A stretch of 45,109 nucleotides of DNA from contig NZ_JAQURE010000024.1 of NCBI RefSeq assembly GCF_028715765.1, forward strand, positions 1 to 45,109. The letters are read 5' to 3'. The translations under genes were made by a program, and so were the position numbers. Source of the DNA: Rhodoferax sp. GTDB lineage: Bacteria > Pseudomonadota > Gammaproteobacteria > Burkholderiales > Burkholderiaceae_C. Below are positions 36,869-43,743 of the stretch, piece by piece; position 1 is the stretch's first letter; every line of letters starts with the position of its first letter. The notes below the pieces were generated by a model. The model worked only from the letters and a program-made list of their open reading frames with translations, did no database searches and was not told the origin of the DNA.

Positions 36869-38659
36869 TTACAGCTGCAGCTCGCTCACCAGCGCTCGGT
36901 ACAGCTGCCGGGGTGTCAGCGGTTTGTGCAGCAATGTGGTGCCGCTAGCCAAGGCTTCCCGCAACCTGTCAGGTGCGGTGTCTCCGGTAATGAGCAAGGC
37001 TGGCAAACCTGCCCCCAGCACTGCACGCAGGGCGGCAATGGCTTGCACCCCGGTGCGCTCCTCGCGCAGCCGGTAGTCACTGATGAGCACTTGTGGCATA
37101 AAGATCTGCACCCTTGCCAACGCCTCGTCCTGGTCTGGCGCTCCCTCGCACTGGCAACCCCAATCTCGCAGCAACTGCAGCATGCCGTGGCGAACGGCCT
37201 CATCATCTTCAAGCACCAGAACACGCACGTTGCGCAATTGGTCCATACCCAACTCAGGATTGATCACCTGGTCAGTCAAGGTTTCTGTGGCCAATGGCAA
37301 AGCCAGTTGAAATCGGCTACCCTGGTGCTCGGTGGACTTCAATGTGAGCGGGTGGCCCAGCGTGCGCGCCAATCCTTGCGCAATGGCCAGCCCCAAGCCC
37401 AAACCATTACGCTGGTCACGTTGTGGATTGCCCAACTGGTGAAATTCCCGAAAGACCTCTTGCTGCTGCGCCAACGGTATGCCGATTCCGGTGTCCCACA
37501 CCTCCAGCACTGCCTGCGCGCCGCGCGGGCGGCAGGTCACCAGCAAGCCCCCACGCTCGGTGTAACGGATGGCGTTAGAGACCAGGTTGCGCAAAATCAG
37601 CTCAACCAGGGCCGGGTCAGACTGCAGCACCAGCGCACTTTCGCACGATCGGTAGCGCAAGCCTTTGGCATCGGCCTGAGGCTCAAACTCGCGCTCTATC
37701 TTGTTGAGCAACGACTGCACTCGAAACGGAGCGAGCTGTGGCTCAATCACCCCGGCATCAATGCGCGAGAAATCCAGCAGTGTGTTGAGCATGTCAGACG
37801 ATGCGGCGGCGGCGGCATGGACACTGTCGAGCAGTTGGTGCTGGCGCGCATCCAGCGATGTGCGTGACAGCACATCCAGAAACAAGCCTTGCGCGTGTAT
37901 GGGCTGGCGCAAGTCGTGGCTGGCTGCGGCCAGGAATTTGGACTTGGCTGCGTTGGCGTGTTCGGCCTCGCGCTGGGCTTGCTCGGCTTGCGTGCGGGCA
38001 AGCTTGGCCAGCTCGGTTTCACGGCGCAGTTTGTCCAGTAGGTCGATGTTTTCAAAGCGCAACTCGATGGAAGTGCGGATGGTTTTTGCATTGCTTCGTG
38101 CCTGGCCAAGCAGGCCGAACATGTACAAAATGCAGGCTGCTCCCAACGCCACATACACCGGGTCGCGCTCCTCGATTTGCCACATTTTCAGCGCGGTCAG
38201 CAGCAGGTTTGGAACAATGTAGGCCGCAAATACTGGTAGCACGGGCGAACGCGAGGAAGCGCTGCCACTGGCCATGGCTGCAATCGCAACCAGCACCAAT
38301 AAATTGCCTGACAAGCCAACATTGCCCAATGCGATCCAGGCCAACCCAGCCCAAATGACCCCGCCAATGACGCTCAACAGCATCAAAATCCACACCGTTC
38401 GGTGCGTTTGATCAGCGGCAATGCCAGCTGCCATGCAGCGTCGTGTAAACAATTGAAAATTCAAGTGGCTCAGCAATGCCAGCACCGCCCACGCACTCAA
38501 AATCAAAGCATTGTTGGCATTGGACAAGCTCCAAACCAAAAATACAACCACGCCTGTGATAGGAATGCCGGTAGTGAGCGTGCCCAGCATCAACGCGCGC
38601 AGCTGCTCTACCAAAATACGCTCATCGGCAAGGCGTAGTGGGTTACTGCGGAGTCTCAT
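36869..38659 (-). CDS. Hybrid sensor histidine kinase/response regulator, second
   Basis: 596 residues. Membrane helices occupy about residues 28-185, followed by a coiled coil (ELRFENIDLLDKLRRETELAKLARTQAEQAQREAEHANAAK) and H-box KFLAAASHDLRQP (His248), N-box LRNLVSNAIRYTE, G-boxes DTGIGIPLAQQ and GLGLGLAIA, and a receiver with VLVLEDDE, VLISDYRL and LLHKPLTP. It shares its plan with the next kinase and is likely a paralogue. It starts 16 bp after the LuxR-type regulator, so phosphotransfer to that regulator is plausible. Confidence 0.92.
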   Translation of the reverse strand: MRLRSNPLRLADERILVEQLRALMLGTLTTGIPITGVVVFLVWSLSNANNALILSAWAVLALLSHLNFQLFTRRCMAAGIAADQTHRTVWILMLLSVIGGVIWAGLAWIALGNVGLSGNLLVLVAIAAMASGSASSRSPVLPVFAAYIVPNLLLTALKMWQIEERDPVYVALGAACILYMFGLLGQARSNAKTIRTSIELRFENIDLLDKLRRETELAKLARTQAEQAQREAEHANAAKSKFLAAASHDLRQPIHAQGLFLDVLSRTSLDARQHQLLDSVHAAAAASSDMLNTLLDFSRIDAGVIEPQLAPFRVQSLLNKIEREFEPQADAKGLRYRSCESALVLQSDPALVELILRNLVSNAIRYTERGGLLVTCRPRGAQAVLEVWDTGIGIPLAQQQEVFREFHQLGNPQRDQRNGLGLGLAIAQGLARTLGHPLTLKSTEHQGSRFQLALPLATETLTDQVINPELGMDQLRNVRVLVLEDDEAVRHGMLQLLRDWGCQCEGAPDQDEALARVQIFMPQVLISDYRLREERTGVQAIAALRAVLGAGLPALLITGDTAPDRLREALASGTTLLHKPLTPRQLYRALVSELQL

Positions 38660-38675
38660 TAGGCAACCAGATTTG

Positions 38676-39278
38676 TCAGCTCAACAAGCCCTGTTTGCGA
38701 GCCACAAACACGGCTTCCGAGCGGCTTAAAACACCCAGAAACTCCAGAATGTCTTGCACATGACGGCGCACAGTGTTGTCTGACAGCGCCAGTTGCCGCG
38801 CAATGAGTTTGTTTGACAGCCCCTGGTGCAGCAGGTCTAGCACCTCGCGCTGGCGTGGTGTCAGTTGGCGTGTTGGTGGGCTGTCATCTGGCAGTGTGGC
38901 TGCGGCCAATTCCCCGCGCAAGACCAACTCAATGGCGGCAATGATGTTGTCAGCCGCTTCGGCTTTCGACACAAAACCGGCGGCACCCCGAGCCAACGCC
39001 AGCCGCTGGGTGTGTGGCTCGTCTTGTGACGACAACATCAGCACCGGCATCTGCGGCCACTTGTGCTTGATCTGCTTCAAGCCTTCCAGGCCGCTTGTGC
39101 CTTTGAGCTGAATGTCGAGCAGCACCACATCAAGCGCATCGGGTGCGTTGCATAGGGCGGACTCTAGTGTGGCTGCTTCAAAGATGCACGCGCCAGGCAA
39201 GGCGCCGCCAATCACCATGCACAAGCCGGCGCGAAACATAGCGTGATCATCAATGAGCAGGATGCGTGGCGAAACCAT
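38676..39278 (-). CDS. LuxR/NarL-type response regulator
   Basis: 200 residues from the ATG at 39278 (MVSPRILLIDDHAMFRAGL). The receiver has acidic pair Asp10-Asp11, phosphoacceptor Asp55 (VVLLDIQLKG) and Lys105 (GFVSKAEAADN). The output domain (residues ~137-195) is LTPRQREVLDLLHQGLSNKLIARQLALSDNTVRRHVQDIL. It is first in a probable operon with the two hybrid kinases and divergent from the PEP-CTERM genes. The palindrome TGGTCTAAACAGACCA in the shared intergenic region is a reasonable binding site. Confidence 0.93.
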   Translation of the reverse strand: MVSPRILLIDDHAMFRAGLCMVIGGALPGACIFEAATLESALCNAPDALDVVLLDIQLKGTSGLEGLKQIKHKWPQMPVLMLSSQDEPHTQRLALARGAAGFVSKAEAADNIIAAIELVLRGELAAATLPDDSPPTRQLTPRQREVLDLLHQGLSNKLIARQLALSDNTVRRHVQDILEFLGVLSRSEAVFVARKQGLLS

Positions 39279-39300
39279 GGCGCGTATTAAACCACCCGAA

Positions 39301-39396
39301 AAACCTGTGCCCTCTGGTCTAAACAGACCATTTCCAAAAGCTGCTGCCCGGCCTAGCATCAACCCCCGAAATTTGCGCCTGCCCCACGCACGTTTG
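39301..39396. promoter_or_regulatory. Repeated promoter block with palindrome, copy 1
   Basis: 68 of the first 80 bases match 40107-40186 without gaps. It contains the perfect palindrome TGGTCT-AAAC-AGACCA at 39315-39330, then TTTCCAAAA, GCCTAGCATC and GAAATTTGC. It lies between the LuxR-type regulator and the first PEP-CTERM gene and may serve both directions. Confidence 0.7.
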
Positions 39397-39400
39397 CGAT

Positions 39401-40108
39401 ATGAAAAAGGGGACGCTACCCTTTCTTATTGCTCAAATGCTTGGTGCTGCACACATTTTGGAAATTGGTTTTCTACATTTATTTAAGACCACTTCAATGT
39501 CAACCAGTCTTTTTTTCGGCAGCTTGGCTCATGTACTTGCAACTTACAAGACATTCAACCTGACTTGGAGCGGCGCTTCATTTGGTAATGGTGCGTCTGC
39601 CACGGGCTACTTTACCGTTGATACGGCATGCCTCAATAACCCAGGTTTTACTTCTTTTTCTGGAATGTCGGCTTTGTCGGCATTGAGCATCACCGTCACT
39701 GGATCATCTGGCGGAAATGGTACGTTTGGCCTGTCGGATTTCAGTACTTTTTTCATCAACACAGCTGGCGGAATTTTGGATCTGAATCGTGAGTGGTTTG
39801 GACAGGCGAATCCGGAGGGGGCATGGGGTTCAGGTGCTTTTCCTTCGACCGTCGGGGACTTTAATGTGTTTAGCAATGGTTCATCAGCAAGTACACCCAC
39901 CGCCACAAGCGGCTTTACGCTTCGTACGGCTGGTGGAGACTCAATACTCTTGACCTCGGTAACGCCTGTACCAGAGCCGGTAACTTGCGCCATGCTGCTG
40001 ACTGGTTGGCATCACAGGGGCGGTTGTGGGTCGTCACAGGTACACCCCGGTTTGATTGATCCGACAACGTCTAGGCAATGGCATAAATGGGACGCTTCCC
40101 TTAATTAA
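39401..40108 (+). pseudogene. PEP-CTERM protein gene, frameshifted in the sorting signal
   Basis: The body (FNLTWSGASFGNGASATGYFTVDTACLNNPGF ... TSGFTLRTAGGDSILL) is a typical PEP-CTERM extracellular domain. The tail reads VTPVPEPVTCAMLLTGW and then leaves frame. Two bases appear lost near 40005-40009; with frame restored it would read GITGAVVGRHRYTPV and stop at 40055, a normal PEP-CTERM helix and basic end. The present 5' end (MKKGTLPF) lies in a short GGGACGCTACCC hairpin and lacks a convincing signal peptide. It is probably non-functional, or a sequence change should be checked. Confidence 0.7.
40086..40103. repeat. GGGACGCTWCCC hairpins flanking the first PEP-CTERM gene
   Basis: AAAGGG-GACGCTA-CCCTTT (39406-39424) at the 5' end and TGGGACGCTTCCCTTA (40088-40103) at the 3' end share the core GGGACGCTWCCCTT in the same orientation. 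They resemble short REP-like palindromes and provide the apparent start and stop of the damaged gene. Confidence 0.5.
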
Positions 40109-40202
40109 ACCTGTGCCACCTGGTCTAAACAGACCATTTCCAAAAACCGCTGTACTGCCTAGCATCGGCTCCTGAAATTTGCACCTAACCCGTTTACGTT
40201 TG
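40107..40202. promoter_or_regulatory. Repeated promoter block with palindrome, copy 2
   Basis: This is the counterpart of 39301-39396, with the same palindrome TGGTCTAAACAGACCA at 40121-40136, about 88 bases before the start of the second PEP-CTERM gene. The palindrome is identical while surrounding bases vary, as expected for a protected operator. Confidence 0.7.
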
Positions 40203-40223
40203 TTTGTTATGGAGAACTCCCGC

Positions 40224-40931
40224 ATGAAACTAACTTCGCTCTTTGGCACATCCACCTCAATGATCATCCTGTCACTGACCTGCATGCTGCCCGCACAGGC
40301 GGCTTTGCAAGCGCGTGACATTGGTAGCACTGGTGCTACCAACGCCTTTTACGACACCACACTGAACGTGACATGGCTTGATATGGCCAGTGGGGCATTG
40401 ACCTGGGATACAGCCAATGCCTGGGCCAGTGGCCTGAATGTGGGTGGTGTCACCGGCTGGCGCTTGCCTACCATGACGGTGGCCAACCCAAATACAAACA
40501 TAAGTAGCAACGGCACCACGGATTATGGTTACAACGTGCCCGGTAGTTCCAGCGAAATGGCCAGCCTGTTTTACAACACCCTGGGCAATAAGGCATATGT
40601 CAACACCAGTGGCGCAGTCCAAGCAGGTTATGGTTTGACCAATGCAGGTGGCTTCCAAAACTTGCAACCCAACGGCTACTGGCTCGGTACAGAGTTCGCG
40701 CCTAACCTTTCCAGACCTACTGCTTGGTACTTCAATAACGGCATTGGCACCCAGCTTGCCGCCTACAAGAGCGACTCGTTGTATGCCATGGCTGTTCATG
40801 CTGGTGATGTGATGGCCCCAGTGCCCGAGCCCGAAACCTACGCCATGTTGCTGCTTGGCCTGGGGGTGGTTGGTGCCATCAGCTGTCGCCGCTCAAGGGC
40901 GCATGGGTCTTTGGCGAATCAGGTCAATTGA
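40224..40931 (+). CDS. DUF1566-like PEP-CTERM protein
   Basis: 235 residues from the ATG at 40224, after GGAG. Signal peptide MKLTSLFGTSTSMIILSLTCMLPAQA. The domain (residues 27-195) has [60 protein letters not shown] and YAMAVHAGD, the DUF1566/C-type-lectin-like pattern. The end [18 protein letters not shown] plus Arg-rich tail is a PEP-CTERM signal (VPEP from residue 200) for exosortase sorting, usually linked to exopolysaccharide. No exosortase gene is in the window. The next gene is a close paralogue. Confidence 0.92.
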   Translation: MKLTSLFGTSTSMIILSLTCMLPAQAALQARDIGSTGATNAFYDTTLNVTWLDMASGALTWDTANAWASGLNVGGVTGWRLPTMTVANPNTNISSNGTTDYGYNVPGSSSEMASLFYNTLGNKAYVNTSGAVQAGYGLTNAGGFQNLQPNGYWLGTEFAPNLSRPTAWYFNNGIGTQLAAYKSDSLYAMAVHAGDVMAPVPEPETYAMLLLGLGVVGAISCRRSRAHGSLANQVN

Positions 40932-40976
40932 AAGTTGGCGCGTTTTAGTGGTTTGTTGTTTTTGGAGATCCTACGC

Positions 40977-42242
40977 ATGAAATTCACTTCGCTCTTTGGT
41001 ACGGCAGTCACCACCACTGTCCTGTCGCTGGCCTGTGTGTTGCCCGCAGAGGCTCAATCCGTGTCAGGTCAAGGTAGCTGGGAAACCACATTGTTAGGGC
41101 GTGACATCAACCGCAATGCCGTTGTTGCCACCGATGTCAGCGCGGTGTACTTGTATGACACCACGCTAGGGGTCACCTGGCTCCGCGATGCCAACGCCAA
41201 CAGGCAAATGACCTGGGACACTGCGACTGCTTGGGCCGCTAACCTGAGCACCGGCAGTGGTGGCAACACCATCAGCGGCTGGCGCTTGCCCACCATGACT
41301 GACACTGGCACGCCGGGGTGCAATTTGTCACCCGTCGGCACTGACTGTGGTTACAACTCCACCACATCCACCAGTGAAATGGCCAGCCTGTTTTACAACA
41401 CTCTGGGCAACAAGGCTTACTTCAATACCAGTGGTGCAGAGCAAGCGGGTTTCGGTCTGACCAACGCAGGTAGTTTTCAGAACATGCAGTCCAGCTACTA
41501 CTGGATCGGTACAGAGTACGCGCCTGATCCCAACCGCGCGTGGTACTTCAATACCTGGGATGGTGGCCAGGATGCCGCCGTTAAATCCCCTCAGATTTAT
41601 GCCTTGGCTGTGCATGCTGGTGATGTGATGGCCCCAGTGCCCGAGCCCGAAACCTACGCCATGTTGCTGCTTGGTTTAGGGGTGGTGGGAGCCATCAGCC
41701 GTCGCCGCTCAAGGGCAGCTGGCACCTTGGCAACAGCTGCGCACGCTGATGCGCACCCGGCCACCTTGGATGTCAATGCCACAAGTTCCAACACGTCTCC
41801 GCGCCGAAGGCAAGGCGGATTCACCTTGATCGAGCTGATGATTGTGGTGGCCATCATTGGCATTCTGGCTTCTGTTGCTTTGCCAAGTTATCAAGCCTAC
41901 ACAATCCGTTCAAAAGCTACAGAACTTATTTTGGCAGCAACCCCTGGGCGCATAGGAGTGGAGGAATGGGTTGCACTCAATAACAATGGGTTCGTTCCTT
42001 GTGATACATGCTATGTGGCTCCAGCACACTCATCAAAGTACGTTTCAAACGTGACTTGGCGTGGAAATAGCAATATTGGCTATTTGACAGTTACCGGTGC
42101 TGGTCATCCAGAACTGACCGATAAGTTTCTATCCTTGGTTGCCACGCTCAATAACGGACGTATCACCTGGACTTGTGTTTCAGGTGGTCCTGGGCTTTTC
42201 GCTAAGATTGATTCAAAATATTTGCCGAGTAACTGCAAATAA
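40977..42242 (+). CDS. PEP-CTERM protein fused to a type IV prepilin
   Basis: 421 residues in one uninterrupted frame. Residues 1-26: signal peptide [26 protein letters not shown]. Residues 27-218: DUF1566-like domain paralogous to the previous gene. Residues 221-245: PEP-CTERM helix ([20 protein letters not shown]) and Arg cluster. A 35-residue linker follows, then [20 protein letters not shown] with cleavage before Phe282, pilin Glu5 (Glu286), and a 140-residue mature pilin with a C-terminal Cys pair (TWTCVSG ... SNCK). No in-frame ATG lies in the linker; a TTG at 41766 could start a separate prepilin. Each half alone is ordinary; the fusion is not known to me. Confidence 0.85.
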
Positions 42243-42428
42243 CGCATCAGATCATTACCGGTCAAAAGTCAAATCAAACCACGAGGGGTATGCCGCTGCC
42301 GTCAAGCTGCCGTGGCTGAATGCGCGATTAGCACGCTTTGGCATTCGAGCAACACACCACCCCGCAGTTTGTCTTTGGAGCTGATGTGCAGCTTTGCCAT
42401 TCATTTGTGCCGCTGGTATGGGGCTGAC
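42243..42428. other. Intergenic region after the fusion gene
   Basis: 186 bp between converging genes. No terminator hairpin with T-run was found for the fusion gene. A short open stretch (AAGCTGCCGTGGCTGAATGC onward) reads like a gene fragment but I cannot name it. Confidence 0.35.
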
Positions 42429-42983
42429 TCAGCGCTTGAACTGGGCGGTGATTTGCGCCACGCGCTGGCCAAACAGGCGGGCGGTTTCCAGGTCGCCGGG
42501 CAACATGTCTTCGGCGGACGCGTCAGAGGGCGACTGCGCCATGGCACCAGCAAATGAGCCCACATAGTTGATGTCGTTGCGCTGGGCGGCCTTGCTGTTG
42601 CTGGGCATCAGGCCGGTGCCGACCCACACGCCGCTGTGCTGCATGGCCAGGGTAAACAGGTAATGTAGTGTGGAATGTTTGTCGCCGTTCATGGTGGCGC
42701 TGTTGGTAAAGCCAGCAAACACCTTGTCTTTCCAGGCTTGACCAAACCAGGGTTTGCTGGTGGCGTCGGCAAATTTTTTGAACTGCCAACTCACACTACC
42801 CATGTAGGTGGGGCTGCCCATGATGATGGCATCGGCCGCGTTGAGCGTGGCCCAGCCGTCGTCAGACACATTGCCGTCGCCGTCAATGGTGACCAAATCA
42901 GCATCCGCACCTGCGGCCACCGATTGCGCCATGCGCAGGGTGTGGCCGTAACCCGAATGACATACCACTGCTACTGTTGCCAT
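42429..42983 (-). CDS. Flavodoxin-family NAD(P)H:quinone oxidoreductase-like protein
   Basis: 184 residues from the ATG at 42983, with AAGGAG upstream. The FMN-binding pattern fits WrbA-like proteins: TVAVVCHSGYGHTLRMAQSVAAGA (phosphate loop), ADAIIMGSPTYMGSVSWQFKKFAD, and FAGFTNSATMNGDKHSTLHYLFTLAMQHSGVWVG. It likely reduces quinones in two-electron steps. It follows the pirin gene by 58 bp; the pair is divergent from a LysR regulator, an arrangement also common for quinone or electrophile stress genes. Confidence 0.9.
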   Translation of the reverse strand: MATVAVVCHSGYGHTLRMAQSVAAGADADLVTIDGDGNVSDDGWATLNAADAIIMGSPTYMGSVSWQFKKFADATSKPWFGQAWKDKVFAGFTNSATMNGDKHSTLHYLFTLAMQHSGVWVGTGLMPSNSKAAQRNDINYVGSFAGAMAQSPSDASAEDMLPGDLETARLFGQRVAQITAQFKR

Positions 42984-43041
42984 GAGAAAACTCCTTTTGA
43001 AATTGAAAATAAAACCAACACAGAAATAAACCAACCTTTTT

Positions 43042-43743
43042 TCAGGCGTGCAAATCAAACACCAGCACCTCGGCGGCATCCGCTTCTGACAGCACCACTT
43101 CAGACTCATCGGCCAGCAAGGCCGCGTCTCCCGTGGTCAGCGTCACACCATTGACCTGCAGCGCGCCACGCACTAGATGCACATAGGCTTTGCGCCCCGC
43201 TGGCAAAGACAGGTGCGCAGTTTGCCCGGCCTCAAAAAACCCCGCATAGAGCCAGGCATCGGCTTGGATTTTGACCGAGCCTTGCGCTGCGTCAGGCGAG
43301 GCCACCAGGCACAAGCGCCCCTGCTTGGCGGCGCTGGCAAAAGTGGTTTGCTCGTAGCTGGGGGGCACGCCGCGCTGGTTGGGCTCAATCCAGATTTGCA
43401 ACAAATGCGTGGTGCTGTCAGGGGCGTGGTTGAACTCGCTGTGCTGCACGCCGGTGCCCGCGCTCATGCGCTGTACGTCGCCCGGCGGAATGCCTTTGAC
43501 GTTGCCCATGCTGTCTTGGTGCGCCAGCTCGCCCGCGAGCACGTAGGTGATGATCTCCATGTCGCGGTGGCCGTGCGTGCCAAAGCCCATGCCGGGGGCG
43601 ATCCAGTCTTCGTTGATCACGCGCAAATTGCCCCAGCCCATGTGGGCAGGGTCGTAGTACCCGGCAAACGAGAAGCTGTGGTACGACTTGAGCCAGCCAT
43701 GGTCGGCATAGCCGCGCTCTTGAGAGGGTCGCAGGGTCAGCAT
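43042..43743 (-). CDS. Pirin family protein (YhhW type)
   Basis: 233 residues from the ATG at 43743, with GAAGGAGAA upstream. N-terminal cupin: RGYADHGWLKSYHSFSFAGYYDPAHMGWGNLRVINEDWIAPGMGFGTHGHRDMEIITYVLAGELAHQDSMGN. Metal ligands His (GTHGHRDMEI) and the later SAGTGVQHSEFN are as in YhhW. Some pirins have quercetinase activity; the natural substrate is uncertain. The second cupin half ends LADESEVVLSEADAAEVLVFDL. Probably cotranscribed with the flavodoxin gene. Confidence 0.95.
   Translation of the reverse strand: MLTLRPSQERGYADHGWLKSYHSFSFAGYYDPAHMGWGNLRVINEDWIAPGMGFGTHGHRDMEIITYVLAGELAHQDSMGNVKGIPPGDVQRMSAGTGVQHSEFNHAPDSTTHLLQIWIEPNQRGVPPSYEQTTFASAAKQGRLCLVASPDAAQGSVKIQADAWLYAGFFEAGQTAHLSLPAGRKAYVHLVRGALQVNGVTLTTGDAALLADESEVVLSEADAAEVLVFDLHA

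Follow-up and report, generated by a model that had tools for sequence, protein, structure and literature searches.

In-frame fusion of a PEP-CTERM protein to a type IV prepilin in Rhodoferax: a possible natural polyprotein

Organization of the locus

The window, by which we mean the whole stretch of 45 109 nucleotides that was analysed, is an entire contig of a Rhodoferax genome (3.4 Mb, 112 contigs, 98% complete). It contains three genes with PEP-CTERM features, here denoted A, B and C, next to a LuxR-type response regulator. The features discussed below are as follows.

38676–39278, − strand: LuxR-type response regulator next to the PEP-CTERM genes (start placed by eye at 39278; 38676–39272 scanned)
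39401–40108, + strand: gene A, a decayed PEP-CTERM gene whose tail runs on in another frame; homologue of the N-terminal part of P0003
40121–40138, + strand: inverted repeat TGGTCTAAACAGACCATT ahead of gene B, with an identical copy at 39315–39332 ahead of gene A
40224–40931, + strand: gene B, unfused paralogue of 235 aa with a Lcl_C-like region (30 bits, below the cut-off of 34.9) and a PEP-CTERM signal (over cut-off)
40797–40858, + strand: PEP-CTERM tail repeat, 62 bases identical to 41613–41674
40977–42242, + strand: gene C, the fused gene of 421 aa (signal, Lcl_C, PEP-CTERM, linker, prepilin), from Pfam and the relatives P0002 and P0003
41154–41612, + strand: Lcl_C domain, residues 60–212, C-type-lectin-like fold
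41634–41708, + strand: PEP-CTERM signal, residues 220–244 (PF07589)
41715–41801, + strand: linker, residues 247–275, without Met; 7 of 29 residues differ from P0002
41727–41743, + strand: weak sigma54-like site TTGGCAACAGCTGCGCA (score 10.1), 90 nt before the G(−1) codon, overlapping TTG codon 251
41766–41768, + strand: in-frame TTG, codon 264, a possible internal start that is not conserved
41802–41819, + strand: basic prepilin leader RRRQGG, G(−1) codon at 41817 (within N_methyl, residues 276–302)
41820–42239, + strand: mature type IVa pilin of 140 aa with F1, E5 and a C-terminal Cys pair (Pfam Pilin)
42429–42983, − strand: downstream gene, flavodoxin-like by eye

Elsewhere in the genome TGGTCTAAACAGACCATT has one weaker copy, with two mismatches, and beside the LuxR-type regulator the inverted repeat is likely to be a locus-specific operator. 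A search of 38500–43500 against Rfam at the gathering threshold gave no match.

One open frame carries two sorting signals

Gene C is read from ATG to TAA through 421 uninterrupted codons. All four Pfam matches to its product (P0001) lie above the curated cut-offs: Lcl_C at residues 60–212, PEP-CTERM at 220–244, N_methyl at 276–302 and Pilin at 311–421. Residues 6–22 are hydrophobic, and the putative Sec signal is judged from that stretch. A sequence-only reading of the same DNA had described a single frame with a Sec signal, a DUF1566-like domain (Lcl_C, formerly DUF1566), a PEP-CTERM signal, a linker and a pilin; the frame and the order of the Pfam matches agree with it, as do its VPEP at residues 221–224, its 35 residues (linker plus basic leader) between RRRSR and the prepilin cleavage site, and its 140-residue pilin with a C-terminal Cys pair.

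The Lcl_C assignment combines the Pfam match with a lectin-like fold. A full-length structure model shows this domain folded, followed by two helices (224–257 and 284–301) with an unstructured stretch between them; residues 259–281 are of low confidence, and so is the pilin head. Foldseek with the full model returned nothing at E ≤ 0.001, the top two rows being the Lcl C-terminal domain (E 0.031) and gonococcal pilin (E 0.047).

The PEP-CTERM signal scores 35.8 bits against PF07589 (cut-off 20.7) and 25.2 against TIGR02595 (cut-off 16), and has the PEP motif, transmembrane helix and basic cluster of the class. Instead of lying at the extreme C-terminus, as is normal in an exosortase substrate, RRRSR is followed by 175 residues, and we therefore do not file the product as an ordinary PEP-CTERM member. 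Passages of PMC1569441 give fewer than ten residues behind the signal in 87% of cases and propose that signals with very long tails are non-functional.

On the pilin side, the class III signal matches PF07963 with 38.5 bits (cut-off 21.2) and has G(−1) at residue 281, F(+1) at residue 282 and E5, but is internal (residues 276–302) rather than N-terminal. The head matches PF00114 with 47.7 bits (cut-off 22) and contains four Cys, of which the last two are near the C-terminus (positions 120 and 140, counting from G(−1)). Its closest solved structure is Neisseria PilE, with a sequence match over residues 282–401. When compared with 48 other pilins, drawn from 117 others among the matches listed with the pilin half as query, it retains 31 of the 32 columns conserved in at least 90% of them. 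No ATG is present near the pilin start, whereas 68 of the 72 distinct pilin-like sites in fetched loci (heads of 90–200 residues, the window's own loci excluded) are preceded by a Met no more than 35 residues away. Since a nearby ATG is missing and 31 of the 32 conserved positions are kept, the fused pilin is probably translated within the fusion protein and not separately.

A normal pilA (C5) lies elsewhere in the genome, so the fused pilin need not be the main pilin. A foreign origin of the pilin was considered from its composition, as GC3 of the head is 0.39 versus 0.57–0.78 in the remaining 40-codon windows; the genome's own pilA has 0.31, and the low value is thus no evidence of transfer. 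A recent copy of the genome's own pilA was also rejected, because the fused pilins form a separate group in a tree (few columns, bootstrap not settled, midpoint root).

Two relatives share the junction

The search for proteins with the same domain order, which the earlier reading had suggested, was successful. Among the best 120 of 933 matches to the whole protein are P0002 (421 aa, 90% identical), with all four domains in unchanged order, and P0003 (363 aa), in which PEP-CTERM, N_methyl and Pilin follow a body that is not Lcl_C. Both are predicted proteins from sources other than the window. The body of P0003 is a homologue of the window's decayed gene A; thus one tail–linker–pilin part is found behind two different bodies. 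We considered an assembly chimera of the window and ruled it out: P0002 and P0003 have the junction in common, which makes an assembly error in the window very unlikely. P0003 on its own could be a chimeric assembly. P0002 and P0058, a homologue of gene B, are both jgi entries from contigs of length 6651, and probably lie on one contig.

The PEP motif and the prepilin cleavage site are 59 residues apart in each of P0001, P0002 and P0003, with no Met between RRRSR and the site, and all three retain G(−1), F1 and E5. Residues 220–246, the PEP-CTERM part, are identical in P0001 and P0002 (27/27), and also versus P0003. P0001 and P0002 differ at 0 of 27 positions in this part, 7 of 29 in the linker, 12 of 146 in leader plus pilin, 18 of 192 in the lectin half and 6 of 27 in the signal. 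The linker differs more than leader plus pilin (Fisher p = 0.02), and the lectin half is no more constrained than the pilin. The linker contrast between P0002 and P0003 has the same direction but is not significant (p = 0.13).

The fusion is narrowly distributed in the genomes sampled

A PEP motif and a pilin in one stop-free match were found in the window's own genome only: among the matches listed, in which a fusion of this type should rank first, this is 1 of 89 genus genomes and 1 of 399 family genomes, and it is likewise 1 of 399 order, 1 of 369 class and 1 of 398 phylum genomes. These samples overlap, and because the cut-offs were strict (1e-12 to 1e-15) and scoring covered a part of the first-look candidates in most genomes, a diverged fusion could be missed. 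Marginal extra matches in the order sample (L108) and the phylum sample (L189) were dropped, as they have a leader with a nearby Met and no PEP-CTERM. A motif scan found no fusion in part of the genus matches that cross the junction with stops or run from the linker on (G053, locus L042; G032, G041, G027, G069 and G016). After the window's own, the row listed in the family search that reaches furthest toward the PEP-CTERM signal (G180) begins at query residue 13; the PEP motif is therefore missing from it. Genome contigs were also searched with the pilin half; 13 stretches matched, none of them a relative.

In protein-level searches, PF07589 occurs in three of the best 120 of 805 proteins found with the pilin half, all of the same lineage, and a motif scan of 261 proteins identified three fusions, P0001–P0003. 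Among 160 distinct pilin-like sites in fetched loci, a motif scan saw no independent fusion elsewhere, the one fusion being the window's own, nor did such a scan find a convincing PEP-CTERM adjoining pilins in relatives. The downstream gene is matched in 78 of 89 genus genomes; in the flanks of 29 other loci (30 fetched) the motif scan found no PEP-CTERM beside its homologues. As judged from these comparisons of sequence, the fusion is real, unusual and apparently very rare.

In 68 of the 120 listed matches to the pilin half, the prepilin motif lies at position 41 or beyond. The long N-terminal extensions of many of these pilins (P0121–P0237) are probably start-site misannotations, with a Met a few codons before the site; P0160 has a longer Met-free stretch ahead of it. 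Three tandem Lcl_C-like PEP-CTERM genes were observed in the beta-proteobacterium MAG Ja_bin-5366 (L047, 3171–5615, same contig as L089).

Origin of the fusion

The near-identical PEP-CTERM tail of the preceding gene, on which a duplication-fusion had been proposed, is present as the 62 identical bases of 40797–40858 and 41613–41674; both the duplicated tail and the in-frame fusion are borne out. The local alignment of genes B and C stops at 41731. The stop codon of gene B follows about 15 bases later, and gene C continues through the linker. A tandemly duplicated PEP-CTERM gene may have lost its stop and joined a divergent pilA whose start is gone. Recombination in the PEP-CTERM tail could have moved the tail–pilin cassette behind another surface protein.

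Genome G081 shares 85.5% identity over 2333 bases in the adjoining sensor kinase and regulator. At the matching locus it has a short PEP-CTERM remnant without a pilin, and an unfused pilin is found elsewhere in G081. Its scar (L056, 2900–3190) consists of the regulator, a variant of the inverted repeat and then the remnant PEP-CTERM tail.

The linker and possible internal starts

Two in-frame TTG codons are found in the linker. The one at 41766 had been named as a possible independent start of the pilin, which would argue against a fusion; the case for it is weak, as both P0002 and P0003 have Ala at codon 264 and nothing like a ribosome-binding stretch lies ahead of this TTG. The second, at 41727 (codon 251), may be a start and encodes a Leu that is conserved in P0002 and P0003, but it overlaps the sigma54-like site TTGGCAACAGCTGCGCA and so lies outside any transcript from that site.

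The spacing of this site is that of the sigma54-like sites before other pilins: 44 of 47 sites scoring at least 12 before relatives' pilins are located 73–102 nt before the G(−1) codon, and the genome's own pilA has a site at 88 nt. The chance of such a site at the spacing seen in gene C is 0.7–1.5% on the + strand and 0.6–1.1% on the − strand. The −12 element is poor, and the TTGGC of the site is also present in the tail of paralogue B. The linker as a former pilA 5′ region was rejected on DNA similarity, as 75 of 100 shuffles matched the upstream regions of other pilA genes equally well. With the site partly PEP-CTERM tail and the linker DNA unlike those regions, descent of the linker from a pilA promoter is a suggestion only. 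The window's top-scoring + strand sigma54-like site (40744–40760) is inside gene B, ∼230 nt upstream of gene C, and may be chance.

Proposed processing and its alternatives

PEP-CTERM and prepilin signals are both normally terminal. The proteases for both are encoded in the same genome, where the earlier reading had proposed to look for them: there is one exosortase match, XrtB (420 bits, cut-off 275), accompanied by EpsI type B, and a single prepilin peptidase match, PilD (A24_N_bact and Peptidase_A24). The predicted membrane topologies of the two signals are compatible, as the earlier reading had proposed. Sec would export the lectin-like domain, the PEP-CTERM helix would cross from outside to inside, the basic linker would be in the cytoplasm and the pilin helix would return from inside to outside. 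PilD most likely would act first, cutting after Gly281 at the cytoplasmic face to release the mature pilin. The remaining PEP-CTERM protein, with 35 residues still trailing in the cytoplasm, would then be cleaved by XrtB at the PEP motif on the outer face.

Processing into two proteins is the best candidate mechanism for gene C. That the product is one polypeptide with two opposite membrane-sorting signals, cut by PilD and then by XrtB, seems to us plausible, though somewhat short of probable. More tentatively, gene C would be a natural polyprotein from which PilD and the exosortase, two unrelated membrane proteases working on opposite faces, release a free pilus subunit and a lectin-like matrix protein in equal numbers, the tail–pilin part being a movable cassette. 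It counts against such processing that even after the PilD cut, RRRSR would still be trailed by 35 residues, and that among the genomes sampled the fusion is found in its own only.

The same narrow distribution would be expected of a lineage-specific fusion without selected function, produced by recombination in a repetitive PEP-CTERM cluster and tolerated or degraded as a protein. The locus is evidently unstable (gene A has decayed, G081 has a remnant only and P0003 has swapped its body), which is consistent with such an accident. We nevertheless consider it rather unlikely, because frame and spacing are preserved in three copies, the pilin hallmarks are intact, and between P0001 and P0002 the linker has diverged more than PEP-CTERM and pilin (the p = 0.02 above, for the pilin side).

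It is improbable that the product stays uncut as a two-helix hairpin anchor, which would place the lectin-like domain and the pilin head both in the periplasm and need neither protease. The predicted topology is consistent with this without cleavage, and the 175 residues past the PEP-CTERM signal could block exosortase; yet an uncut anchor does not need the G(−1), F1 and E5 kept in all three copies, and PilD is present in the genome. Very improbable is a pilin translated separately from TTG codon 251 or 264, perhaps behind a relic sigma54 promoter, with the fusion a mere gene overlap: the 90-nt spacing, inside the usual range, and the conserved Leu251 would fit, whereas the low-scoring site shared in part with paralogue B, the linker DNA unlike pilA upstream regions, the Ala at codon 264 and a codon 251 upstream of any transcript from that site do not.

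If the fusion is processed by both proteases as proposed, PilD can process a leader consisting of a secreted protein anchored in the membrane, and exosortase may not require the end of a chain. Gene C would then allow the order and topology of both cuts to be tested in a natural protein, and might connect pili with the exopolysaccharide matrix.

Comparison with known systems

In the collection of papers searched, none combined PEP-CTERM with prepilin and exosortase, or with polyprotein. Gene C resembles the PEP-CTERM/exosortase substrates (PF07589, TIGR02595) in its PEP motif, short helix, basic cluster and N-terminal hydrophobic signal and in the exosortase of the genome; it differs in that the signal is internal, with a whole pilin included in the residues behind it. 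The lectin-like domain can be compared with the C-terminal domain of Legionella Lcl (8q4e), a protein that, according to PMC11162425, recognises sulphated glycosaminoglycans; in gene C the domain is tied to a PEP-CTERM signal and a pilin.

With type IVa pilins (PF00114, PF07963; Neisseria PilE) gene C shares G(−1), F1, E5 and a head with a Cys pair, but carries its class III signal mid-protein, after a secreted domain and a membrane helix and with no ATG close by. Mitochondrial GspG pseudopilins, as described in passages of PMC8134430, also have long sequences ahead of the pseudopilin, likely for targeting; they are eukaryotic, and the extension as described there is not a secreted domain with its own sorting signal. 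Modular type IV pilins, in the excerpts of PMC8179133 and PMC10191384, have an N-terminal class III signal and an extra domain grafted onto the processed pilin. Gene C likewise has a further domain within a pilin gene, but falls outside that definition: its extra module is upstream of the cleavage site and would be removed from the pilin, so that the order of the modular pilins is reversed.
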